Shown piece after piece: positions 23-11,587 of a stretch of 11,894 nt of DNA. The stretch spans positions 1 to 11,894 of the forward strand of contig JAUVXR010000045.1 in assembly GCA_030603495.1 (NCBI GenBank). Direction: 5' to 3'. A model generated the notes under the pieces. The model was not told the DNA's origin and searched no databases. It saw nothing but the letters and a program-made list of their open reading frames with translations. How positions within the stretch are numbered: position 1 is the stretch's first letter; every line of letters starts with the position of its first letter. The stretch is from a bacterium. GTDB lineage: Bacteria > Armatimonadota > Zipacnadia > Zipacnadales > Zipacnadaceae. Made by a program: the position numbers and the translations under genes.

Positions 23-70
23 AAGCTCAATCACCATTGCTACAGAATAATGGTTCAATTACTACCGATG

Positions 71-99
71 ATTCTAGCACATCGCCCACTTGACAGCAA
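71..99 (-). promoter_or_regulatory. Putative transposase promoter in the left IS end
   Basis: On the minus strand TTGCTG (99-94) is followed, after a 17-base spacer, by TAGAAT (76-71). The same pair with the same spacing occurs in the second IS copy (11504-11476), although the flanking bases have diverged. Its position about 35-50 bases upstream of the transposase start fits a sigma-70 type promoter for the transposase. Confidence 0.6.
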
Positions 100-117
100 G
101 CCCCCCTCTGCTATAAT
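90..117 (+). promoter_or_regulatory. Outward-facing sigma-70 consensus promoter in IS end
   Basis: TTGACA (90-95) and TATAAT (112-117), both perfect consensus hexamers, are separated by 16 bases and point out of the IS across its inverted repeat into the gene fragment at 144-456. Its -35 box overlaps that of the divergent transposase promoter. The equivalent site at 11495-11524 keeps TTGACA and has TACAAT with an 18-base spacer. Conservation of both hexamers supports function. Activity is inferred from sequence only. Confidence 0.65.
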
Positions 118-143
118 GAGAATGTAACTTTCGCAACAGTCTC

Positions 144-456
144 GACTCATAAGATTGAACAGGTCTTGCGCTTGCCAAACCTGCGTGTCTTCGTCTGCTC
201 GTTCTGGACTGACTTGGCGAAAGTTGTAGAAGCGTGCCAGGACAATTACTGCATAATGTGGCGCGAAGGCGCGGCACTAGCAACATTGAGCGAAGACCTC
301 CAGCCGATACGCGAGCATATGGAAGAGGGTATGAGGATTCTGCAGGGCCACCCCTACCAGTTTGTCCTGCGCGAGATAGAGACATTGGCCGGACGCCCCC
401 AGCGCTTGCACGAATGGGCGCGGATGGGCATCGAACTGGCCGAGAAGTATGCGTGA
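144..456 (+). pseudogene. 5'-truncated gene fragment, URO-D-like C-terminus
   Basis: An open frame runs without a stop from the IS inverted repeat to TGA at 454-456, giving about 100 residues with no good start (only a TTG at 166 without a clear ribosome binding site). The sequence (FVCSFWTDLAKVVEACQDNYCIMWREG..., then an ILQG...LREIETLAGRPQRLHEW section) resembles from memory the C-terminal end of uroporphyrinogen-decarboxylase-superfamily proteins. Their last helices carry a similar 'SPWAD...YVxSWKxNP...ERLxxW' pattern. The missing 5' part presumably lies left of the IS, so the IS appears to have landed inside this gene. The family assignment is tentative. The outward IS promoter could still transcribe the fragment. 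Confidence 0.5.
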
Positions 457-703: not shown

Positions 704-1450
704 TTACTGCTTCGTCGCCACAATCAGGAAATACGGCACATGCAGGAAGAATGACCATTTGCCCGAGCCTTCCTCGATAGCTTGGGCGACGTTCTCCGCG
801 ATCTGGTGCTGTTGCGCAGTCAGCGGCAGGCCCTCGAGTAGCTTCAGCGCTGCGGCTTCGGCCGGCTGAGGAATGTGGGCGAGTTCGACCCAGGTGCGCA
901 GCCCGGCGGCCTCGCAGGCGGCGGGGAGTTTGCGACCGATGAACGGGTCAGCACCCGCCGCGGTCAGTCCGTGGATCCACAGTTGGCGGATGCCCCAGTC
1001 AGGATGCTCCATCATGCCCCCATAATCGGGTTCTATCGCGACCAGCGCGCCGCCTTGCTCCAGTGCGCGAGCAGCCTGTGCAACTGCTGATTCGGTTTCC
1101 GGGATCCACAGCAGCGTATTCTGGAAGAAGACTAAGTCAAAACTGTTGGCGCGGAAGGGGAGGCTGAGTGCATCGCCGGCTATGCGGTTTGCCTCTGAAA
1201 TCTCGGCATCTCGCAGCCCAGTAAAATTGTGATCAAGCGCGGTGACGGTGCCCCGCGTGCGGCGCTGCAGTTCGTCGGTCACCACACAGTGGCCCGCGCC
1301 GACTTCGAGTATGCGTTCGCGCCGACCGATGCCAGCTCGACGCAGCGCCCGGGAGCGCGGCCCGGCCAGCCACTCCGCAAGCTCTCGTGCCTCAGCCTTC
1401 GATGGTAGCTCAGGTCGTGGTGGTCTAGCTGGGTCGAATTCCTCACTCAT
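704..1450 (-). CDS. Class I SAM-dependent methyltransferase
   Basis: The product is 248 residues. Motif I is ILEVGAGHC (residues 47-55). The acidic ribose-binding position is D73 in ALDHN. AGDALSLPF (91-99) and FDLVFFQNTLLWIP (104-117) are the usual motif II/III region of UbiE/Methyltransf_11-type enzymes, and LVAIEPDYGG follows. The substrate is not indicated: the C-terminal third, which sets substrate choice, shows nothing recognisable. The ATG at 1450-1448 is chosen because it gives an ATGA overlap with the stop of the Cys-tail gene and has GGTGGAGG just upstream. A longer reading from 1474 would overlap more and lacks that signal. It is the last gene of the operon, coupled to the rSAM/Cys-tail genes, so it may act in the same pathway, but a housekeeping role is equally possible. 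Confidence 0.9.
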   Translation of the reverse strand: MSEEFDPARPPRPELPSKAEARELAEWLAGPRSRALRRAGIGRRERILEVGAGHCVVTDELQRRTRGTVTALDHNFTGLRDAEISEANRIAGDALSLPFRANSFDLVFFQNTLLWIPETESAVAQAARALEQGGALVAIEPDYGGMMEHPDWGIRQLWIHGLTAAGADPFIGRKLPAACEAAGLRTWVELAHIPQPAEAAALKLLEGLPLTAQQHQIAENVAQAIEEGSGKWSFFLHVPYFLIVATKQ

Positions 1451-3240
1451 CGGCCTCCACCTGCGCAGGCACAAGCACAGGCACAGCCGGCGCAGGCACA
1501 GCCTCCGCCACCCCCGCCTCCGTTGCCCGAGCTTTCCGCCATTGATTCGAGGACGTCCAGCGTCACCTTATCTACACCGGACAGGTTGAGACCGCCGCGA
1601 TCTGCGAGCCCCAAGGATACCGGGTCGAGGGTGCTGGCCAGCTTGCCGGTGGTGTTCTCTGCCCAGCCGGCAAACGAGGCAGCCACGTCGCCGGTGGTAG
1701 TCCGCCCTCCGGTCGTTACCGTGGCCGGTACCGGCAGTCCCACGCCGCCACTGGGCTGTGACCAGGTCGGGCGATAGTGGTAGCCGCCCCGGTGCCAGGT
1801 GACGAAGCTTTCGTGGTAGTCGGGGGCGAGCATCAGCAACAGCAAGTTGTCGTCCACGAATTCGGTGCGCGCCTCTATTTCGCCTATCGCTTTGGCCTTG
1901 GTCCACGCGCCGTAGACAATTGACTCGTAGTACTCGCGAGTCTGTTTGAGATTGAAGCCACTCATCCGCTCGGCAGCCTTCTCGATCAGCCCCTTCATCG
2001 CCTCCTGCAGGTTTAGCTCGGCAATGGACGTGCCGGGATTCTCTTCAAAGGCGTCCAGGAAGGGCTGCTCGTAGGCGTGGATGACCGTGCCATTTTCGCG
2101 GGCGGCCTTCTGACGCTCAGAACGGCTTCCATGGTATTCCTCGGGCATCTCCACAGCCAGTGGATCTTCCTGAGTCTGCCGCACGAGGCCCTTCTTCATC
2201 AGGCCGAACACCACCAGTGTGAGCACCTTGCCCAGCGGCAGCTCCATTATTACTGCGGCCTCGGGCACGGTCAGGCCCCGCTTGATGCCGCCGGCCTCCA
2301 CCGAGGCAATCGGTGGCAGGTAGCTGCGCCGGGCGGCAGCTTGGCTACGTTCGGCCAGCAGCCACAGTACAATGAGGACCGGCAGGGCAATCGCCTCCAA
2401 GAAGGGGCTAATAGCAAAGGCGATGGCCGAGAAGCCCAACATGAATATGAAGACGCTGATGCCGGTGCCATTGGTCAGCCGGAAGAAGAAGATGCCTAGC
2501 AGCACGAACAAAACCAGAGCCCAGAAGACGCGGATCGTGGGGTTCTCCTTCCACCACTTCCACAGCAGCATCAGCCTGGTCATGCGCACCACGCGGTAGT
2601 CATGCTTGGGGAACGAGACGCCCACCAGGTGCGGGCCGTCAACGCGCGCATCGTCCCAATACCAGACGACCGCCTTGCTCCCGTCGGCGAGTGTTACCTT
2701 CTCAGCAAAGGCCTCCTTCTGGTAGACTGCTTCGCCGAGTTCGACCGACTCGGGTAGATCAATGACGATGCCCAATTCCGTGGTTCCGGTGACGTATTGA
2801 CTGCCCCACCAGGTGGGCGTTATCTGGAGCGAGGCATAGTCTTTGCGGGTCGTATCCTGGAAGATGAGGTTGGGCATGGTGCACGTGAATATGAAGGTGC
2901 CGCTCTCGCCGGGCTGGATAGCATAATCGCCCAGGTGGACTTCGACTCCAATGTCAACCTCCGTAGAGGTGCGGATGTCGTAGACCTGCTGGTCATTGAC
3001 GCTGGCCATCATATTGCCGATGTCGTAATCGCTGTGGGGCAAGCCGACATCCACAATATCAATGGCATGAGCACCCTGGTTGCAGCTAAACTCCACCGTG
3101 TATCTGAGGTCTACCGAGGCGTCCTGGTTGGGCGTAACCCCGAGCATCATCCGTGGCACGCTGAACGAGTAGCTCTGGGCCAGGGCCACGGGACTGGCAA
3201 TGAGCGCCAGGATTATGACCGCGACAAACCGATGTTTCAT
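1447..3240 (-). CDS. DUF2207-like membrane protein with a six-cysteine C-terminal tail
   Basis: The product is 597 residues. A signal peptide (1-22, ending VALAQ) leads into a beta-rich extracytoplasmic region (about 23-215) that resembles the N-terminal domain of DUF2207 proteins. Three membrane segments follow (about 236-255, 261-278 and 280-296). A cytoplasmic part contains a small winged-helix-like section (about 318-360, LTVPEAAVIMELPLGKVLTLVVFGLMKKGL in two pieces). The C-terminus has a run of seven glycines (574-580) followed by CACAGCACACACAGGGR, with Cys at 581, 583, 586, 588, 590 and 592. The rest of the protein is nearly free of Cys, so the tail stands out. The ATG overlaps the previous stop by one base (TGATG). 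Position directly after two SPASM-type proteins makes it the candidate substrate. Alternatively the tail binds metal. Biochemical function is unknown. Confidence 0.85.
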   Translation of the reverse strand: MKHRFVAVIILALIASPVALAQSYSFSVPRMMLGVTPNQDASVDLRYTVEFSCNQGAHAIDIVDVGLPHSDYDIGNMMASVNDQQVYDIRTSTEVDIGVEVHLGDYAIQPGESGTFIFTCTMPNLIFQDTTRKDYASLQITPTWWGSQYVTGTTELGIVIDLPESVELGEAVYQKEAFAEKVTLADGSKAVVWYWDDARVDGPHLVGVSFPKHDYRVVRMTRLMLLWKWWKENPTIRVFWALVLFVLLGIFFFRLTNGTGISVFIFMLGFSAIAFAISPFLEAIALPVLIVLWLLAERSQAAARRSYLPPIASVEAGGIKRGLTVPEAAVIMELPLGKVLTLVVFGLMKKGLVRQTQEDPLAVEMPEEYHGSRSERQKAARENGTVIHAYEQPFLDAFEENPGTSIAELNLQEAMKGLIEKAAERMSGFNLKQTREYYESIVYGAWTKAKAIGEIEARTEFVDDNLLLLMLAPDYHESFVTWHRGGYHYRPTWSQPSGGVGLPVPATVTTGGRTTTGDVAASFAGWAENTTGKLASTLDPVSLGLADRGGLNLSGVDKVTLDVLESMAESSGNGGGGGGGCACAGCACACACAGGGR

Positions 3241-4559
3241 CAGCCTTCACCGCCTTGGGTATCGTCGCTCCAGCCGCGGGGATCGCGGGGGCAGTCTGCC
3301 GCACAGATAGGCAGATCGGGGCAATCGGCGCAACGCGTTGGTGCGGCCAGTCGTTCGCGATAGCGGGTAAAGCATGGACTTGCCCAGATCTGTTCCCAGG
3401 TATCGCCCAGAATGTTTCCGGCACTGCTCCGGGGGCCTCGGGCCGGGTAGACCGTCCCATCCTGGTCTACCCTTATCGCTACATCCCCGGCCGCCCGGGG
3501 GCCGGCCATTACCTGCTCGGCCAGTGAGCGGCTGTTATCGAAGCGCACAGGCACTTCCCATAGATAGCGCACATTCGCCGTCTCGGAAGCTTCGTTGATG
3601 ACCGTAGCCACCTGGGGCAGAGCCGATCCCGGCAGCGCCCCTGCCTCTTGGGCTATCTCGTCATTATCCGGGCAAGCCAGCGCGAAGAATGAGATATTGG
3701 TTGCGCCTTGATTCTTGAGCTGCTCAATAGTAACTTCCAGCTCATCTACATTGCTCTCAATCAAGGGCACCTGCGCGACAGCGCACAGCTCCAGCTCCTC
3801 GCAGCGCGTGAAGTAACGCCAGACCAGATCGTGGTCGCCTGCCCCGACCAGGTCATCGTGCTCCGTGCCCGAGGCGGATACATATAGCAATGTCAGGTGA
3901 TCCAGACCCGCGTTGGCTGCCTCATCCAGGATTTCTCCCGCCAGCCAACTGGCTATCGTGCGCAGGCCAGTGATCATGCCGATGTCCTCGGCGGTCTCCA
4001 CCAGACGAGGAAGGTCCTCTGCGCGAAGTTCCGGACGGACTAGAAAGGTCACGTGCGGGATGCCCGCGTCCCAGAGCTTGCGGATGATCTCCTCAGTAAG
4101 CTCAAGCTGTCCGGGCACGAGGTCGGCACGCAATGGCGCAGCAAGGGCCCGGCGGTGCATGGCAGCGTAGGGGTCGTCGAGGTCGGAAATCGGGTAGTTG
4201 TCACCGGGGTGAGAAAGATTGTCGATGAGCGTGCGGACCTGCGCCAGATCCGCTTGCATTTCATCACCCGTGACATCGGGAAAAGTATCGGCTACCTCCC
4301 GGAAGATCTCGTGGTCTTCACGGCCTTCCAGTATCCTCTGCGTCATCAGCACGCCGCTTTCTGACAGGACCGCCGCCTGTGCGGCATTAGCCAGCAGCAG
4401 GCCCTGCCCGTCGAGGTCAACGCGCAGATGAAAACGTGTCGGCCAGTCTGCTTCCAGGCGCTGGTAGTGATAGATACCTGGCTCCGGTCCGGTAGCACGG
4501 GGCTGGGGACGAATCTTAAAAGAATCAAGGAATCTCTGGCCCAAAGAAGGCTCCGTCAA
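3240..4559 (-). CDS. Catalytically degenerate radical SAM/SPASM paralogue with PqqD-like domain
   Basis: The product is 439 residues and co-linear with the next gene upstream (4556-5983). A PqqD-like region lies at about 43-115 (FHLRVDLDGQGLLLAN...). The position of the CxxxCxxC loop reads LRADLVPGQL, with no Cys before residue 253. The FTGGEP strand has become FLVRPE. In the SPASM region both first cysteines are lost (GPRAAG..., TVYPARG), but CX2CX5CX3C (C410, C413, C419, C423) and the AGNIL-DTWEQIW segment remain. It therefore cannot bind the SAM-cleaving cluster and is probably a partner or substrate-binding pseudoenzyme. The start is TTG at 4559-4557. It is supported by GGAGGTGA seven bases upstream (4574-4567) and by overlap with the preceding stop. 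The frame is long and intact, so this is not decay. Confidence 0.85.
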   Translation of the reverse strand: MTEPSLGQRFLDSFKIRPQPRATGPEPGIYHYQRLEADWPTRFHLRVDLDGQGLLLANAAQAAVLSESGVLMTQRILEGREDHEIFREVADTFPDVTGDEMQADLAQVRTLIDNLSHPGDNYPISDLDDPYAAMHRRALAAPLRADLVPGQLELTEEIIRKLWDAGIPHVTFLVRPELRAEDLPRLVETAEDIGMITGLRTIASWLAGEILDEAANAGLDHLTLLYVSASGTEHDDLVGAGDHDLVWRYFTRCEELELCAVAQVPLIESNVDELEVTIEQLKNQGATNISFFALACPDNDEIAQEAGALPGSALPQVATVINEASETANVRYLWEVPVRFDNSRSLAEQVMAGPRAAGDVAIRVDQDGTVYPARGPRSSAGNILGDTWEQIWASPCFTRYRERLAAPTRCADCPDLPICAADCPRDPRGWSDDTQGGEG

Positions 4560-5983
4560 GGTCTATTCACCTCCGCAGGTCTGGCCTGGCGCTCCAGCGG
4601 GCAGCCCCCGCCGCAGACCGCCAACTGCTCGCACTCCCAGCACTCCTCGGGTAGTCCGGCGGCCGCGGGATTCTCCCGACGATAGCGGAACCGGCACAGC
4701 AAGTCGCTGTGCCAGATATTCTCCCACGGATCGCGCAGGATATTCCCCGCCGGCTCGTAGTAGGATTGGCAGGGCAACACATCACCGTTCGGCTCAATGC
4801 AGATCGAATACTCGCCGGCGTTGCAACTGCGCGGCCCCAGTCCCAAGTCGAGAGGGGAGAGGCGGCAGTACTGCGTCGGAGTGTACCACAGGAACCGCAT
4901 CCCGTACTCTTGGGCCCGCTCTCTGACAGCCTCTAGTACCGGCCGCAGCTCGTCTTCAGTGAGGGAGCCGGGATAGCACGCACCGCAGCCAGAGTATATC
5001 ATCCCGTTCATCGTAAAAGTCCGCACGCCCAGCCCACACACGAAATCAACAATCTCCAGCGCCTCATCCGCGTTGGCCTCGATGAGTGTGGTATTGGTGA
5101 TCGTGTGCAGGCCCGCGTCGAGGGCGAGCTGGATACCGCGAATGGTCTGGTCAAAAGCCCGGGCGCCCACAATCTCGTTGTGCAGGTCAGCGTGGTGAGA
5201 GTTCAGCGTAATCTGGACGTGGTCCAGCCCCGCAGCTTTCAGTCGGACGGCAAAATCCGGTTCGGCCAACCGCCGCCCGTTGCTGTTGATTCCGGTGATC
5301 TGCCCGAGATTGTCCGCATACTCAACCAGCTCGAATATCGCCGGATGCAGCGTCGGCTCGCCGCCAGTGAAGATCACGTAGGGCACACCGATGTCCAGCA
5401 GCTTGCGCAGAACCGACTTCCACTTGTTGGCAGGCAGCGAGGGCATGGTCCGGCGGCCCGGCTCGTTGTAGCAGTGCGCACAGTTGTTGTTGCAGGCGTA
5501 ATGCAAAGCCAGGTCTGCTTTATACGGTGCCTGGGCGCGTACTGAGAATAGCGGTGCTTGCTCCGCGCTTATCTGGCCGACGGGACAGCCTGTTGTCGGT
5601 TCGCGAAGCGTCGTGATCATCTCGCTAACATGGCGGAAGTCGCCAGCTAGGCGCTGAGAGGATGCCCTCGGGTAGGTGCGCCGCAGAACCGCCCCGGCTT
5701 GCTCCTCCGTGACTTCGTCGAGGGCGAGCTTGGCCATATAGGCTGCCGTCGGGGTCAGGTGGACGGCCTCCTGGGTGTTGACCAGCAGCAGCCCGGTTTG
5801 GTCAGCGTGGATGCGTAGGTGTAGCCGGAGACTGCCCTCGGGGCTATTGATACGGTAAGTGAACAGGCCGGGTTGGGACTTGCGGCCAGCCCGCAGCGCG
5901 TACATCTGTGCCGAGAAGCGGCTCAGGTCGCGGCCAACTGCACTGGCTACGCGCCGGAGCAGACCGGCGAGGCGCTTCACCAT
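4556..5983 (-). CDS. Radical SAM/SPASM protein with N-terminal PqqD-like domain
   Basis: The product is 475 residues. A basic N-terminal helix (1-35) precedes a PqqD-like region (about 52-125; LHLRIHADQTGLLLVNTQEA). The radical SAM core begins near 155, with C164-C168-C171 (CNNNCAHC) to ligate the SAM-cleaving 4Fe-4S cluster, and FTGGEP (205-210) follows. The SPASM domain has C387-x12-G-x4-C405 and C448-x2-C451-x5-C457-x3-C461. The usual last Cys after this group is absent. PqqD-like domains are known peptide-binding (RRE) modules and SPASM enzymes usually modify peptides or proteins, so a protein substrate is likely. The ATG at 5983-5981 is preferred to one at 6028: it overlaps the previous stop by 7 bases and has GAGGAAGAG upstream. 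Confidence 0.92.
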   Translation of the reverse strand: MVKRLAGLLRRVASAVGRDLSRFSAQMYALRAGRKSQPGLFTYRINSPEGSLRLHLRIHADQTGLLLVNTQEAVHLTPTAAYMAKLALDEVTEEQAGAVLRRTYPRASSQRLAGDFRHVSEMITTLREPTTGCPVGQISAEQAPLFSVRAQAPYKADLALHYACNNNCAHCYNEPGRRTMPSLPANKWKSVLRKLLDIGVPYVIFTGGEPTLHPAIFELVEYADNLGQITGINSNGRRLAEPDFAVRLKAAGLDHVQITLNSHHADLHNEIVGARAFDQTIRGIQLALDAGLHTITNTTLIEANADEALEIVDFVCGLGVRTFTMNGMIYSGCGACYPGSLTEDELRPVLEAVRERAQEYGMRFLWYTPTQYCRLSPLDLGLGPRSCNAGEYSICIEPNGDVLPCQSYYEPAGNILRDPWENIWHSDLLCRFRYRRENPAAAGLPEECWECEQLAVCGGGCPLERQARPAEVNRP

Positions 5984-6366
5984 TTCGGCTCTTCCTCTAT
6001 CTGATAGGAGGTCCCGCAGTAGGGGCAATCCACGAAGACGCCTCCGGCCCTGACCGAAACGCTATCCCTATCCAGCGCCGCCCCACAGGAATCACACTTC
6101 ATCTCTTCGGGGTGCACATCGCCGGACAGGTCAATCTCCTGGATAATGCGCTGGTCGGGCACCTTGGTGCGCGCTAGGTAAGTCACAAAGAAAGCCACGA
6201 GGAGAAGGACGGGCCCGATGATTATCCATTGCCCACGTACGTAGCTGACGCCCGCGATCAGGAAAGCAACTCCGAAGAATCCCAATATGCCACTTATCAG
6301 GTATGCCAACGTTTTCAATCGCTTGGTGGCCCGCCCTGCCGTGGCGGGCGTCTCCTTTCCACCCAT
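5977..6366 (-). CDS. Small two-TM membrane protein with C-terminal zinc ribbon
   Basis: The product is 129 residues. A basic N-terminus (ATKRLK) is followed by two membrane segments (about 20-41 and 47-65) and a soluble part with CDSCG (91-95) and CPYCG (114-118). This CxxC-x19-CxxC spacing is typical of a zinc-ribbon or rubredoxin-like knuckle. With the basic loop inside, the ribbon should face the cytoplasm, where the rSAM proteins act. It overlaps the rSAM gene start by 7 bases and follows the dehydrogenase gene by 36 bases. No clear Shine-Dalgarno sequence precedes the ATG. I do not recognise a named family. A role as a membrane dock for the rSAM pair is inference. Confidence 0.8.
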   Translation of the reverse strand: MGGKETPATAGRATKRLKTLAYLISGILGFFGVAFLIAGVSYVRGQWIIIGPVLLLVAFFVTYLARTKVPDQRIIQEIDLSGDVHPEEMKCDSCGAALDRDSVSVRAGGVFVDCPYCGTSYQIEEEPKW

Positions 6367-6402: not shown

Positions 6403-7401
6403 TTAGTTCGATGCAGGAGCGGACAGTCCTTTTGCCTCTGCCAGCAATCCCAGCAGGCGCTCCAGGTTGCTCACGCCGTCGGCGAAGGTTGCCAGGGGCT
6501 TGCCTGCGCCGCGGACTGCTTCCACAAAGCGGGTTAGCGACACCTGCATGAAGTCGGTGTACTCGCGCTCTACCCCGCACAGCGTCATAAAGCTGGCGTA
6601 GATGCCCTCAGCGTTATTGCGGCCCTCGTAGTCGGCTATCAGGTCATTAAGCCCCAGCCGGCGGGTCAGCGGCCCCTCGGGGACGTTGCGTACGAGGATA
6701 TGCGCGCGCACCGGTGCGCCGTTGGTGGGCCGGAAGTCGAAATGGGCGTCCACCCGCTTGTGCGCGACGCGGACCTCCTGGCTCCCAAGGTCAACCTCTC
6801 CCGGCCCGACCAGCGCCTCCAGTACACTAAGCGGATGCGGGGCTAGGTCAATCCAGGTCTGCTTGTAGTCGGCGCCCTCTTTACCCCCGTGCGACTCCAT
6901 CTGCATAAAGAAGCTCTTCGGCTGACTGATCAGCTCGGCAAGGCCAACCTGCTCGGCCATATCTTGATACGCTTGCGCGGCCGCGACATACTGCGTATTG
7001 ACGGCAGTGACCACGCCGACCTCTTCAGCGGCTTGCGCCAGCTCCTTGGCTTGGGCGAGAAGCTGCTCCCGGCTCTTATCCCAGTCGTGGACCAGCGGCT
7101 TCTCGCAGATGACGTGCGCGCCGTGCTGGAGAGCAAGCGTAACGTGTTCGTAGTGCCATTCGTTCGGGGAAGCCACCGCCACTATGTCCGGCTGCTCGGT
7201 CTCGAGCATGTGCGTGACATCGGCGTAGCCCGTACCCTCAAAGGGAAAGATACCACGCAGGACGTGAGCGGTGCGCTCGACGGATGCTGCGGAAGTGCCT
7301 GCTAACCCGACCACCTCGCAGCCGAGCTGGTACAGCCACTTAGCGTGGTGCTTCCCGATCCCGGCAGCACCAATAACCACCGCGCGCAAAGGTTCGCTCA
7401 T
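6403..7401 (-). CDS. Gfo/Idh/MocA family NAD(P)-dependent oxidoreductase
   Basis: The product is 332 residues, the usual length for the family. The N-terminal Rossmann fold shows GAAGIGKHH (11-19). CEKPL (99-103) carries the conserved EKP that contacts nicotinamide and substrate. WIDLAPHPLSVL (183-194) is the C-terminal domain motif with the conserved His189. Members oxidise or reduce sugars, inositols or related hydroxy compounds; the substrate is not readable here. It is the first gene before the zinc-ribbon/rSAM run and is separated from it by 36 bases, so it may share the transcript without sharing the function. The start ATG has a weak AGGA upstream. The FucI-like isomerase lies upstream beyond a terminator hairpin, so a sugar-related role is plausible. 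Confidence 0.93.
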   Translation of the reverse strand: MSEPLRAVVIGAAGIGKHHAKWLYQLGCEVVGLAGTSAASVERTAHVLRGIFPFEGTGYADVTHMLETEQPDIVAVASPNEWHYEHVTLALQHGAHVICEKPLVHDWDKSREQLLAQAKELAQAAEEVGVVTAVNTQYVAAAQAYQDMAEQVGLAELISQPKSFFMQMESHGGKEGADYKQTWIDLAPHPLSVLEALVGPGEVDLGSQEVRVAHKRVDAHFDFRPTNGAPVRAHILVRNVPEGPLTRRLGLNDLIADYEGRNNAEGIYASFMTLCGVEREYTDFMQVSLTRFVEAVRGAGKPLATFADGVSNLERLLGLLAEAKGLSAPASN

Positions 7402-7638: not shown

Positions 7639-9357
7639 TCAGCGCTTCGCCCGGGCCAGCTTGGCTATGGTCTCGCCACCGTTCTGGATGTAGAGCAGCG
7701 GCGTGGGCCGGTCGGTCCCCTCGACGTATTCCGGCCGCGCCTGCCACGGGGTGCATGACAGAATGTTGGCCAGGTCCATCCAGTATTCGAGCCGCGAGAC
7801 CTGCAGGTCCCAGGTCATATGGAAGTGGTTGGCCGGCGCGAACTGCTTGTACTCGCCCATGGTGGCGTACTTGGGCACGACGAAGGTATGCGGCCAGGTC
7901 GCCGTCGAGGTTTCGCAGACGGCCTTCGTCATTGCCTCCGGCAGGCTGGTGGTCGTGGCTTCGTCCCAGATCAGCGAGAAGATGTTCTGGGTGGCGCTGT
8001 AGGCCAGCCGACCGGCGACGCCGTCAATGCCGGCTGGCGAGACGAAGAAGACCGAGTTCCCGCCGCCCGGGAAATAGAACTCGTCGGCCAGCGGGAAGCT
8101 GACCCGCGACATGATATCCTCGACGCTGGCGCCGGGCTCGGCTGCCCAGTCGAACGAAGCGCTGCCCGAGTTGTCGCCGTCCACCAGGCCCTTCTTGCGC
8201 CACAGGCCGTCAGGTTCGACGTCGCCCAGGCCCAGGTTATTCGCGAGCCGCTCGAGCTCCCACGGCTCCCAAACCTTGCGGAAGTCCATGAACAGGGGCG
8301 GGTTGCCGCCGCTGAGCCAGGTGAAGTAGAGCTGGGTCAGCAGGCCCTGGACGTCGGCTTCGGTGGCGTAGGGAACGGCCGGCTTGCGGCCGGTGTGGTC
8401 GAATGTGGAGTTGAACAGCGACTCCATGACGTCGGCCACCGGGAGCGGAATGCCCAGCGGCTGCGAGCCCCACTCGAGCTGGCTCATAAATCCGCCGCCG
8501 ACGGCATTGAGATCCGCCATAATGTCGCGGATGACCAGGTACAGCGCCAGGCTCTGGCGGAAGCGCTGCTCGTCGGCGTCATCACGGAGTTCCACGCGCT
8601 CGCCGACCATCTGATCAATCCAGCCACGCAGGTCATCCAGTTCGCTGGGATCGTAGGCTTGCTTGTTGAGCATGTCGGCCAGCAGTTTCATGTCTAGTCG
8701 GGTGATCTCCAGGCCCAGGATATTGCGTGTGGGGATGACGTGAGCCAGCGCCGTTTCCATGCCCATCGAGTCGTGGCCGAAGATCACCACGCGACGGCCC
8801 TTCAGCGCAGCATAGGTCATCGCCCCGTAGCACCAATCCACCAGGGCTTCGGCGGTACCCTCGGTCATCTGCGGATTGGGGCCGGTATCGGGCCAGGTGC
8901 CCACGTTGATGTGCACGAGCTTGCCATACTGGGAGATTGCCCCACTGGCGGCGTGGACGAAGACTACGCCGGGTTTAGGGCCGGAGTTGCCGCAGGTGAG
9001 GTTGAGGGGCATGTCCTGGGGAAACTGCTGGATCAACGAGATCAAGCTGGGCTGCGGGAATGCCCAGGTGTCAGGGACGCAGACGATAGCATCGACACCC
9101 TCGTCCTTGAACTGCCGCGCCACCATGTCCGCCTGGGGTTCGCCGTCCACCAGGATCGGCGAGTAGACCACGTTCACCGGCGTGCCCTCGGGCGTGTGGA
9201 CTCCGTCAGCGATTACGTTAGCTGTCATCTCGACGATGTTGACACAGCGCTGGCGAGACTCTTTGTCAACTCGCGGGTCGCTGGTGGCGCAGACCCCGAA
9301 AGTTGGTACCTTACCAGTTGCTTCAACTTCTGAGGCAAGGCGTGTGATCTTGCTCAT
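7639..9357 (-). CDS. L-fucose isomerase-family protein
   Basis: The product is 572 residues, close to the roughly 590 of E. coli FucI. It shows the FucI/AraA pattern: an N-terminal Rossmann-like part (VCVPDTWAF near 92-100), FGHDSMGMETAL (193-204; compare the GGRSMGMYTA region of FucI), then E333 in ATEADVQGLLTQ and D358 in LFMDFR. These two are 25 apart and likely match the metal-binding Glu and Asp of FucI. NHFHMTW (510-516) supplies the candidate third, histidine ligand. Family members interconvert aldoses and ketoses such as L-fucose and L-fuculose in the cytoplasm, using Mn2+. The exact sugar cannot be fixed, as homologues act on several. The ATG at 9357-9355 has GGGAG eight bases upstream; an in-frame start at 9396 lacks this. 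A hairpin follows the stop codon. No fuculokinase or aldolase is in view. Confidence 0.85.
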   Translation of the reverse strand: MSKITRLASEVEATGKVPTFGVCATSDPRVDKESRQRCVNIVEMTANVIADGVHTPEGTPVNVVYSPILVDGEPQADMVARQFKDEGVDAIVCVPDTWAFPQPSLISLIQQFPQDMPLNLTCGNSGPKPGVVFVHAASGAISQYGKLVHINVGTWPDTGPNPQMTEGTAEALVDWCYGAMTYAALKGRRVVIFGHDSMGMETALAHVIPTRNILGLEITRLDMKLLADMLNKQAYDPSELDDLRGWIDQMVGERVELRDDADEQRFRQSLALYLVIRDIMADLNAVGGGFMSQLEWGSQPLGIPLPVADVMESLFNSTFDHTGRKPAVPYATEADVQGLLTQLYFTWLSGGNPPLFMDFRKVWEPWELERLANNLGLGDVEPDGLWRKKGLVDGDNSGSASFDWAAEPGASVEDIMSRVSFPLADEFYFPGGGNSVFFVSPAGIDGVAGRLAYSATQNIFSLIWDEATTTSLPEAMTKAVCETSTATWPHTFVVPKYATMGEYKQFAPANHFHMTWDLQVSRLEYWMDLANILSCTPWQARPEYVEGTDRPTPLLYIQNGGETIAKLARAKR

Positions 9358-9648
9358 TTTGCTACTCCCTTCAAATCGGCTAAATCTGCTCAGCAAATCG
9401 GCCCCATGCCCTGCACCAGTAGGGCAAGCTGCACCCTTGGGAATCCGGAACAGACACTGGACTGATAATTCGTGGTCAGAGCGCGATTATCCTCTATCCT
9501 CTCGCCGGATTTCAACAGATGAGGCTCTGCCCGACCGGGCCGTTACTAACTCTGATTTGTAGTAGGAAGGAATTATCGGCGCGGCGTAGAAGCTACATAC
9601 AGTGTGTGCTAATATAGAGGTCTTCGGACCCAACAGGAGGGAACACGT
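9358..9648. other. Divergent intergenic region between isomerase and lipoprotein genes
   Basis: About 290 bases hold the control regions of two divergently transcribed genes. I see no convincing coding frame. GATTT occurs three times in the 30 bases before the isomerase ribosome binding site (minus strand), but no clear -35/-10 pair or operator was found for that side. The plus-strand promoter candidate is listed separately. Confidence 0.6.
9587..9615 (+). promoter_or_regulatory. Candidate extended -10 promoter for the lipoprotein gene
   Basis: TGCTAATAT (9607-9615) is an extended -10 element. A weak -35 (TAGAAG, 9587-9592) lies 17 bases before the hexamer. The transcript would start about 25-30 bases upstream of the strong AGGAGG ribosome binding site (9635-9640), which is 8 bases from the ATG. 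Confidence 0.45.
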
Positions 9649-10401
9649 ATGAAAGTCTCTGTCAATATCGTGGGAGTAGTCGTAGTAGCAATGGTGTTGG
9701 TAATAGCATTGAGCGGTTGTCCTAGGAAGGCTCCTGAGCCTACCGGTGCGCCGCCGGTAGTCGGCGGGCCTCCGGTTGGGTCTCCGACTCCCGAGGTGCC
9801 GGCCGGCGAGCTTAACACCCTGGCGGATGTGTGGGACAAGCTGAATGCAAACAGCAGCTATGAGCTGACTATGACTATGCCAGGAGGGGAGGTCGCCACC
9901 CAGCTCATGAAGCTGGAAGATGGCAAGCCGGTGAAAATGAGGATGAACAACCCGGATGGCAGCAGCTTTGTTTTGATGGATATGAAAGAACATCTCATAT
10001 ATATGTGTGCGCCGGAAGAGAACATGGCTATAAAGATGGAGATGAGTGCCTCGGGCGGTGAAGGTGGCGCCACTTCGGACGCAGCCAAGATGATCTTTGG
10101 CCCAGACTCGGTCGAGAGCAATGTGGAACTGAAGACCTCCGAGACGCTGGGTGGAGTGGAGTGCTGGACAGTTAATACAACAACCAAGGGCGAGGATGAG
10201 GACATGGTCGCCAAGCTCTGGGTGAACAAGGCCACGGGCTTGGTGGTGCAGATGGAGGTGGCGGGGGAGACTCTCAAGATGGAGTACAGCCGCCTCAACG
10301 GCATTGCCGACGGCGAATTCGAGCTGCCCGAGGGGCTGGAAGTCATGGACATGGCCGAGGAGATGGGACGGGCGATGTCGGAGGGATTGGCAGAGGAGTA
10401 G
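9649..10401 (+). CDS. Secreted lipoprotein with LolA-like fold
   Basis: The product is 250 residues. The signal peptide ends in a good lipobox, LSGC, with the acylated Cys at residue 24. A Pro/Gly-rich linker (25-53) tethers a soluble domain of alternating short strands. ELTMTMPGGEVATQ, GKPVKMRM, HLIYMCAPEENMAIKM and AKLWVNKATGLVVQMEV are the strand pattern seen in LolA/LolB-like and related 'outer membrane lipoprotein-sorting' proteins. It is Met- and acid-rich at the C-terminus. Known relatives bind lipids or lipoproteins in the periplasm; function here is unproven. A strong AGGAGG supports the start. It is monocistronic in this window, with the dead IS downstream. Confidence 0.85.
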   Translation: MKVSVNIVGVVVVAMVLVIALSGCPRKAPEPTGAPPVVGGPPVGSPTPEVPAGELNTLADVWDKLNANSSYELTMTMPGGEVATQLMKLEDGKPVKMRMNNPDGSSFVLMDMKEHLIYMCAPEENMAIKMEMSASGGEGGATSDAAKMIFGPDSVESNVELKTSETLGGVECWTVNTTTKGEDEDMVAKLWVNKATGLVVQMEVAGETLKMEYSRLNGIADGEFELPEGLEVMDMAEEMGRAMSEGLAEE

Positions 10402-10708: not shown

Positions 10709-11428
10709 TCAGGCGAGCTTGGCTGGTAGCTTTGATAAGCAGTTGCTGACCAGTTTCGCCATCTTCTTACAATTAACCACCAGGCAGGTCATCAGCACCT
10801 GGATGGTAACCTTCACCAGGCTCCGGTAGCGCGCCGTCCCTAGACCGTAGAAGTTCTTCTTCTTACTCTTGCGCCCGAAGCGCGCGTCGGGATCAGACGA
10901 GCCCGGCACCTGGGCACGTAGAGTATCCGGTGGCGACTCAGGCAACCGAAACAGGTCTACTTTCGCCTGGAGATGAGTAGCATCAATGATCTGTAGACGC
11001 TCACTCACCAGCCCTGCCTGCCGGGCCTGGGTAATGATCCGGTTGAAAATCTGCTAAAACTTCTCGGGACCCAGCCCGGCAAACCATTTACAGGCCAGGT
11101 GCAAATTGACCTGTTCTTCAATCTCCCGGTCAGACAGACCGCAGAGAAATTGTGGTTCGATGTTGCTCACCACTCTGAGCTTGTCGAAGAGCAGGAAGAC
11201 GACCTTGAACAGCACCAACCGGTCCCATGAAGGCCGCCCATCCGCTTCCGCGAGAGGGACGAAGCTTCAGCGGAGTCCCTTGTCCGAGCAGTAACAGTCA
11301 CTGACTAAGTCGGAGACGAAGCTGAAATCCACAGTTGCGGCGCTCCTGCGCAGCAAATGATCGGACGGGACAAGCTCGTCGTAAATCATGCCGAAGAAGC
11401 TGCTTTGGCTACTGTCTTCGCCTTGCAT
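10709..11428 (-). pseudogene. Broken IS1182-family transposase
   Basis: The reading frame starts MQGEDSSQ with the family N-terminus (MIYDELVPSDHLLRR). It continues through GRPSWDRLVLFKVVF, LSDREIEEQVNLHLACKWFAGLGP and SERLQIIDATHLQAK to SDPDARFGRKSKKKNFYG. It then jumps directly to the C-terminal LGTARYRSLVKVTIQ...CLVVN section, so most of the DDE catalytic domain is missing (junction about 10845). In-frame stops occur at 11267-11269 (TGA) and 11054-11056 (TAG). Two extra in-frame stretches of about 40 bases interrupt otherwise conserved sequence. It cannot make a working transposase. An intact relative might still move it through its inverted repeats. Confidence 0.85.
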
Positions 11429-11475
11429 AGCTCCCATCACTCCCGTGAATAGTCCTGCTGGCACTACAGATTCCA

Positions 11476-11504
11476 ATTCTAGCACGCATCCCCCTTGACA
11501 GCAA
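11476..11504 (-). promoter_or_regulatory. Putative transposase promoter, right IS copy
   Basis: On the minus strand TTGCTG (11504-11499) and TAGAAT (11481-11476) are separated by 17 bases, identical in hexamers and spacing to 99-71 in the other IS end. Confidence 0.6.
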
Positions 11505-11524
11505 GCTCCCCCCCCGGCTACAAT
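11495..11524 (+). promoter_or_regulatory. Outward-facing promoter in right IS end, upstream of secreted-protein gene
   Basis: TTGACA (11495-11500) and TACAAT (11519-11524) with an 18-base spacer point out of the IS toward the gene starting at 11588, about 57 bases beyond the expected transcription start. No other promoter is evident in the 38 bases between the IS end and that gene. Confidence 0.6.
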
Positions 11525-11587
11525 ATAAGACGACTTTCGCAACAGTCTCCGGCGACACAACATACCGCTCAGAAGGGGAGAGCAACG

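Follow-up and report, generated by a model that had tools for sequence, protein, structure and literature searches.

A candidate radical SAM/SPASM maturation system for the cysteine tail of a bacterial membrane protein

The radical SAM maturases of sactipeptides and ranthipeptides (SkfB, AlbA, StsB, RumMC2, CteB and PapB) share with the locus described here the combination of a putative RRE-like region with radical SAM and SPASM or Twitch domains, as well as a Cys-containing target, which for this locus is a candidate one. The GeoRSP and TIGR04347 systems also include a SPASM protein whose SAM site is not functional. From another direction, a 2025 survey proposed that some TIGR04222 proteins, those in which the tail is rich in Cys, are substrates of MNIO (DUF692) enzymes (PMC12452194).

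Here, we report a computational analysis of an 11,894-nucleotide stretch of bacterial DNA (hereinafter, the window) that encodes a radical SAM/SPASM enzyme, a dead paralogue of this enzyme and a membrane protein ending in a Cys tail. The first-pass annotation had put forward a candidate undescribed system in which radical SAM genes act on this tail, and our results support it as a candidate, the tail being almost never found without the enzyme or its paralogue. The system does not feature in Pfam, in NCBIfam, in PADLOC or in the literature searched, where no paper contains the string CACACAGGGR and none combines radical SAM, SPASM and DUF2207.

The gene set and its radical SAM proteins

Five genes on the minus strand of the window (704-6366) form an operon in the order Z-A-B-C-M, in which all four junctions overlap (Z/A by 7 nt, A/B by 4 nt, B/C by 1 nt and C/M by 4 nt). 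The first-pass annotation had listed three genes, with the overlaps of 4 and 1 bases seen here on either side of B, as a SPASM radical SAM protein, a paralogue lacking CxxxCxxC and a membrane protein with six terminal cysteines. All of these were found, but a set limited to A-B-C is too short: Z and M also belong to it, recurring beside A-B-C in other phyla. The complete Z-A-B-C-M set, or as much of it as the contigs cover, is present in Zipacnadia, Anaerolineae/Thermoflexales and Planctomycetes, and this spread over three phyla rules out an assembly artefact or an oddity of one genome. All members with an origin on record come from metagenome-assembled genomes, and none is known as cultured.

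The first gene, Z (5977..6366, minus strand), is an open reading frame for a small membrane protein of 129 aa, the C-terminal part of which is a zinc ribbon (CDSCGAAL...DCPYCGTSYQIEEEPKW); it also immediately precedes A in L007, L009, L011, L016 and L121, and in some of the loci with type II tails described below. At the other end, M (704..1450, minus strand) encodes a class I SAM-dependent methyltransferase of 248 aa (Methyltransf_11, E 3.1e-15), which is located after C or A in most loci, across all tail types. Immediately upstream of Z, the minus strand carries genes for a Gfo/Idh-type oxidoreductase (6403-7401) and a divergent L-fucose isomerase-like protein (7639-9396), both outside the gene set conserved elsewhere. 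The remainder of the window includes a gene for a lipoprotein-like protein on the plus strand (9649-10401), with a weak LolA-like match below the cut-off (E 0.0023), and a short open reading frame on the minus strand (11267-11563), which we take to resemble the N-terminus of an IS transposase.

A (4556..5983, minus strand) is a radical SAM/SPASM enzyme of 475 aa whose N-terminal region is putatively PqqD/RRE-like; its two main domains scored above the Pfam cut-offs (Radical_SAM PF04055, E 6.6e-26; SPASM PF13186, E 2e-10). The Cys positions of the SAM-cluster motif CNNNCAHC (residues 164-171; 5471..5494, minus strand) are invariant in the A2 alignment, as are the auxiliary-cluster cysteines of its two-cluster SPASM domain (373, 387, 395, 405, 448, 451, 457 and 461), and CxxxCxxC is kept in 48 of 48 non-redundant A proteins of the CACA type. 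Comparison with A of L007 gave a dN/dS of 0.16. The Pfam PqqD family matched neither A nor B, and the RRE reading rests on the structural model of B (pLDDT 67-91 in this region) together with homology. By sequence, the closest solved structure to A is SkfB (E 1.1e-21), and there is a partial match to PqqE; the family scores of A are similar for NirJ2, AhbD, StsB and GeoRSP, so that the SPASM scores are uninformative on chemistry. Matches of A to the PADLOC viperin models, and of M to the mads_2 model, were taken as resemblance at the superfamily level. Some A proteins (L016:4632-6527, L108:1136-2668 and L111:4885-6228) possess a low-complexity Cys-rich C-terminal extension of their own past the SPASM domain, for example SGGCSSGGCATGGCATGG.

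B (3240..4559, minus strand), a pseudo-radical-SAM/SPASM protein of 439 aa, is a paralogue of A (27% identity; hhalign E 1.2e-53) that keeps the putative RRE-like region and one C-terminal set of SPASM cysteines (CX2CX5CX3C), the SAM-cluster loop being deleted relative to A. CxxxCxxC is absent from every non-redundant B examined, as it is from every non-redundant D, a second dead homologue discussed below. B is dead but selected: its dN/dS against B of L007 is 0.13, indicative of purifying selection, and this value, along with conservation across phyla, rules out a decaying pseudogene. Neither B nor C had a significant sequence match among solved structures. The predicted structure of B (mean pLDDT 78) found its best full-length fold matches in the RiPP maturases SkfB (Z 19.4; 41..433) and SuiB (Z 18.3; 30..430), with the alignment running through the RRE of both. 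The phrases that we tried in the literature returned nothing on pseudo-radical-SAM partners.

Membrane protein C, its tail and their distribution

C (1447..3240, minus strand), the putative substrate, is a membrane protein of ~597 aa that consists of a signal peptide, a beta ectodomain (26-211), three TM helices (234-306), a winged-helix region (325-364), a helical part, a disordered Gly linker and the Cys tail. The AlphaFold2 model (mean pLDDT 72) places the helices at 234-256, 261-277 and 279-306, followed by a part resembling a winged helix and by a tail that is disordered. If the ectodomain is exported and three TM helices follow it, the tail is predicted to lie in the cytoplasm, alongside A, although the residues just before the first of these helices, being basic as well, speak against this topology. 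No Pfam or NCBIfam family matched C above its cut-off, no homologues were found in viral contigs, and a fold search, in which only the ectodomain matched beta-sandwich domains at low TM-scores, was set aside. The homologues of C come from Zipacnadia, Anaerolineae/Thermoflexales and Planctomycetes; across genera and phyla, their bodies are 40-62% identical to that of the window, the nearest being L007 (92%; dN/dS 0.10).

Ahead of the tail, type I C proteins share the segment FAGWAENT (1651..1674, minus strand), near-invariant in the A1 alignment and a candidate recognition element, the place of which is taken in type II by a VERFTxxVTxxTNPPP-like segment. Four loci (L010, L012, L113 and L114) contain a tandem pair of C genes, both tailed, the first copy being shorter and without DLSGVDKVTGDxFEAL before the linker.

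The tail itself, CACAGCACACACAGGGR, comprises the last 17 aa of C (1450..1500, minus strand), with the stop codon directly after; the end of the protein reads ...GGGGGGGCACAGCACACACAGGGR and includes six cysteines. In a collection of 66 non-redundant tail proteins from the three phyla, the tail is C-terminal and adjacent to the stop in all 66, with a GGGR end wherever the end is readable. The two main forms are type I, (CA)2-3-G-(CA)4-GGGR, found with B, and type II, (CA)4-5-G-(CA)3-GGGR, found without B. In type III, known from two proteins, Ser replaces the hinge Gly; the two loci, L079 and L080, have the tail CACACACASCACACAGGGR, with A present, B absent and, in L079, M adjoining. Past the hinge, the type I tail of L105 has 3 units; that of L109 has one additional leading Cys-Val unit, and among 17 C proteins compared the tail is alike in all, save for the gain or loss of one leading Cys-Ala unit.

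Within each of the two main types (including 47 type I tails), the aligned residues are invariant and synonymous codons vary at every position. Since the residues are fixed while the codons drift synonymously, conservation of the tail, judging by this comparison, reflects selection on the peptide. A search for the tail pattern in 251 genomes of the window's own phylum, with two mismatches allowed, returned 38 exact matches in 37 genomes, and the reversed control returned 0; this control and the synonymous drift rule out that the tail arose by chance or from base composition.

The near-invariant tail co-varies with the enzyme. In the tree of A, type I forms a clade apart from types II and III, which group together with moderate support (0.60), and the tail type tracks the clades of A, the exception being the shortened tail in L105. 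An A protein that has B beside it goes with four Cys-Ala units past the hinge, and one without B goes with three. In types II and III, A is present without B, in some cases with the other dead homologue: D, distinct from B and found in type II loci (L100:6702-7844 and L101-L104), is a radical SAM homologue without SAM-cluster or SPASM cysteines, and beside it lies a gene for a protein of ~335 aa that belongs to no known family. The first-pass annotation had cast the pair of A and B as the machine that modifies the tail. The involvement of radical SAM is supported, but B is not universal and the pair is not the minimal machine, types II and III having A without it. Nature provides a test of what dead radical SAM paralogues do, with B present in type I and absent from types II and III, and with the tail layout shifting accordingly.

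One protein carries a type II tail on a different body. In L087 (L087:3-3410), a Ser/Thr kinase-AAA-TPR protein encoded next to A has for its end the C-terminal portion of a C protein of type II, with the tail CACACACAGCACACAGGGR; this portion is only 44% identical to the other C of the same genome. It is either a natural fusion or an assembly chimera, possibly the latter, and as a single case of this kind it was dropped as proof of a portable tag.

To assess co-occurrence, the tail DNA pattern and the profile of B or A were searched in identical genome sets. In the 251 genomes of the window's phylum, 36 contained both, 1 the tail only (G033), 1 the enzyme only (G059, in which the contig end falls inside C) and 213 neither; G065, in which B is just a fragment, was counted under both. 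In 199 genomes of Anaerolineae (Chloroflexota), searched with a generic tail and the A/B profile, the counts were 22, 0, 4 and 173, and in 178 genomes of Planctomycetia (Planctomycetota) they were 2, 0, 0 and 176. The Fisher p-values (3e-41 for the window's phylum and 2e-25 for Anaerolineae) ignore shared ancestry, and presence is sporadic in Anaerolineae and Planctomycetia. Full C bodies occur in Anaerolineae exactly in the tail genomes (22/22), and 13 other genomes of this class hold distant relatives of C, with A, B and the CACA tail all absent.

The first-pass annotation had made its reading depend on how commonly homologues with the Cys tail occur without a radical SAM gene. Such cases amount to 1 of the 37 tail genomes of the window's phylum and to none of the 22 in Anaerolineae or of the 2 in Planctomycetes, along with G262, the genome of L018, where C and M are present and A and B had no match. 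The two genomes with a tail and no detected A or B, G033 and G262, are both drafts. Three Thermoguttaceae loci (L014, L015 and L017) have C apart from the enzymes, beside a MacB/HlyD-type exporter, with A and B elsewhere in the same genome.

Proposed maturation of the tail and its alternatives

From these sequence comparisons, we consider it likely that A modifies the tail of C. A second system is consistent with such a reading. Loci L204-L216 (for example L208:6886-11921), from the 13 Anaerolineae genomes with distant relatives of C, encode a DUF2207/TIGR04222-like membrane protein with an (A-C-H-S)n repeat tail containing 11-13 Cys, and an (ACHS)n-type repeat is present at nearly all loci in which the protein end is readable. 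Where the sequence extends past that end, the neighboring gene in most cases encodes a radical SAM/SPASM protein, followed by a ~400-aa protein and then by a TM-zinc-ribbon protein resembling Z. In L208, the representative scanned, the enzyme scored above the cut-offs for PqqD, Radical_SAM and SPASM, and the membrane protein passed the DUF2207 cut-off and matched TIGR04222 below the cut-off. Because a different tail lies here beside a different radical SAM gene, in disjoint genomes, the (ACHS)n system would be an independent replicate that supports the tail as the substrate of the enzyme.

The operon would then be a system dedicated to maturing the C-terminal tail of C, for which we infer the cytoplasmic site, recognition by the pre-tail segments and the roles of B, M and Z as follows. 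A would bind C in the cytoplasm, probably through contact between the RRE-like region at the N-terminus of A and the conserved segment ahead of the tail in C, and would modify the Cys-Ala repeat carried on the flexible Gly/Ser linker. In type I, B may be a non-catalytic partner that offers a second substrate-binding platform and/or an electron relay via its remaining SPASM cysteines; work on PapB indicates that auxiliary clusters can join intermolecular electron transfer (PMC10470005). M probably methylates the tail or an intermediate, Z may anchor or assist at the membrane, and the modified product would be retained on C and not cut off as a free peptide.

As for the reaction, thioether chemistry on the Cys tail is the likeliest candidate, albeit a speculative one to which we give somewhat less than an even chance. 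Cross-links from Cys sulfur to Ala or Gly carbons might form a hairpin around the conserved Gly hinge, and Ala is accepted as a thioether acceptor by sactisynthases (RumMC2, PMC8188230). The outcome, again speculatively, might be a compact tag, redox-active or able to bind metal, for an envelope sensor. A role of C in envelope stress or redox response is at most thinkable, given that a Streptococcus mutans DUF2207 mutant is sensitive to acid and peroxide (PMC10457818).

Alternatively, the tail could stay covalently unmodified and serve as a metal or Fe-S cluster site, the cofactor of which is built or loaded by A and B, as with other radical SAM maturases; we regard this as unlikely. CxC repeats are classic soft-metal ligands, able to bind metal unmodified. 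The SPASM scores of A include the heme and cofactor enzymes NirJ2 and AhbD, four C-terminal cysteines are kept in B, and Z is a zinc-ribbon protein. However, the Cys-Ala alternation, the Gly hinge, the invariant GGGR and a unit count linked to the enzyme clade make the tail stricter than most metal-binding repeats, and peptides are the typical targets of SPASM enzymes with RRE-like domains.

It is still less probable, and in our view quite improbable, that the tail is a precursor from which a small cofactor or peptide is later cut, as PQQ is derived from PqqA, with C as a membrane-bound carrier. The leader-core-like layout with a C-terminal core, the Gly linker ahead of this core and the partial PqqE match of A could all be read in this way, but the conserved Z-A-B-C-M set includes no protease or exporter, strict conservation to the last residue suits a retained tag, and the kinase-type protein of L087, one case and possibly a chimera, suggests a tag by carrying the same tail. 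That the target of A and B is a lipid, RNA or small molecule elsewhere, with the tailed C merely a sensor or regulator of the operon, would accord with the winged-helix-like region in C and the diversity of radical SAM substrates, but this is very improbable in view of the matching of A clades by tail variants, the two distinct tail motifs that each lie beside their own radical SAM gene, and the orphan C genes that retain the tail while A and B are elsewhere in the genome.

If the tail is modified by A, as we favor, radical SAM peptide chemistry would reach permanent tags on large membrane proteins, beyond short released peptides, and would do so in no fewer than three bacterial phyla that are largely uncultured. 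At only 17-19 residues, the tail is easy to fuse, co-express and weigh.

Relation to known systems

In kind, the system would be one of SPASM radical SAM peptide modification on an unusual substrate, for which we found no earlier description. The substrates of sactipeptide and ranthipeptide maturases are short and released, whereas the candidate target here lies at the C-terminus of a membrane protein of ~600 aa, and in type I the enzyme has a dead paralogue for a partner. RiPPs are defined by a short precursor and a released core, and C, with ~597 aa and TM helices, does not conform to this definition. Scores against the GeoRSP and TIGR04347 systems fell far below the respective cut-offs: for GeoRSP, A reached 99.6 of 400 bits (TIGR04303) and B 15.3 of 300 (TIGR04304), and for the haloarchaeal pseudo-SAM/SPASM family TIGR04347, with a cut-off of 525, B reached 40.6 bits and A 107.2.

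On the side of the membrane protein, C distantly resembles DUF2207 (PF09972) in its signal peptide, ectodomain, TM region, winged helix and Gly-rich tail (hhalign 92%), with no match of the window's C to PF09972 at the Pfam gathering cut-off. Ordinary DUF2207 proteins in the relatives of the window differ in having a poly-Gly-W end and no Cys tail. The likewise distant likeness to TIGR04222 (hhalign 91% in profile comparison) extends to a membrane protein with a winged-helix-like domain, a low-complexity Cys C-tail and a genetic link to a RiPP-type enzyme; against the NCBIfam cut-off of 43 bits, the window's C gave no match and its relative in L088 scored 26.6 bits. TIGR04222 tails (in Planctomycetes) are of the CGG type, variable and often GD-ending, whereas the tail of C is near-invariant, with Cys-Ala repeats and a GGGR end; moreover, the former are predicted to be periplasmic and the enzyme is an MNIO (PMC12452194), whereas the partner enzyme of C is a radical SAM protein. 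The first-pass annotation had called a large membrane-protein substrate unusual, which holds in comparison with short released peptides, although TIGR04222 proteins, as proposed MNIO substrates, show that it is not unprecedented (PMC12452194).

Taken together, these comparisons raise the prospect, which we hold to be evenly balanced, that DUF2207/TIGR04222-like membrane proteins constitute a class of never-released RiPPs, whose permanent C-terminal Cys-repeat tails would be matured in place by interchangeable pairs of tail motif and enzyme: Cys-Ala repeats with a radical SAM enzyme, with or without a dead partner, (ACHS)n with a PqqD-radical SAM enzyme, and CGG with an MNIO.
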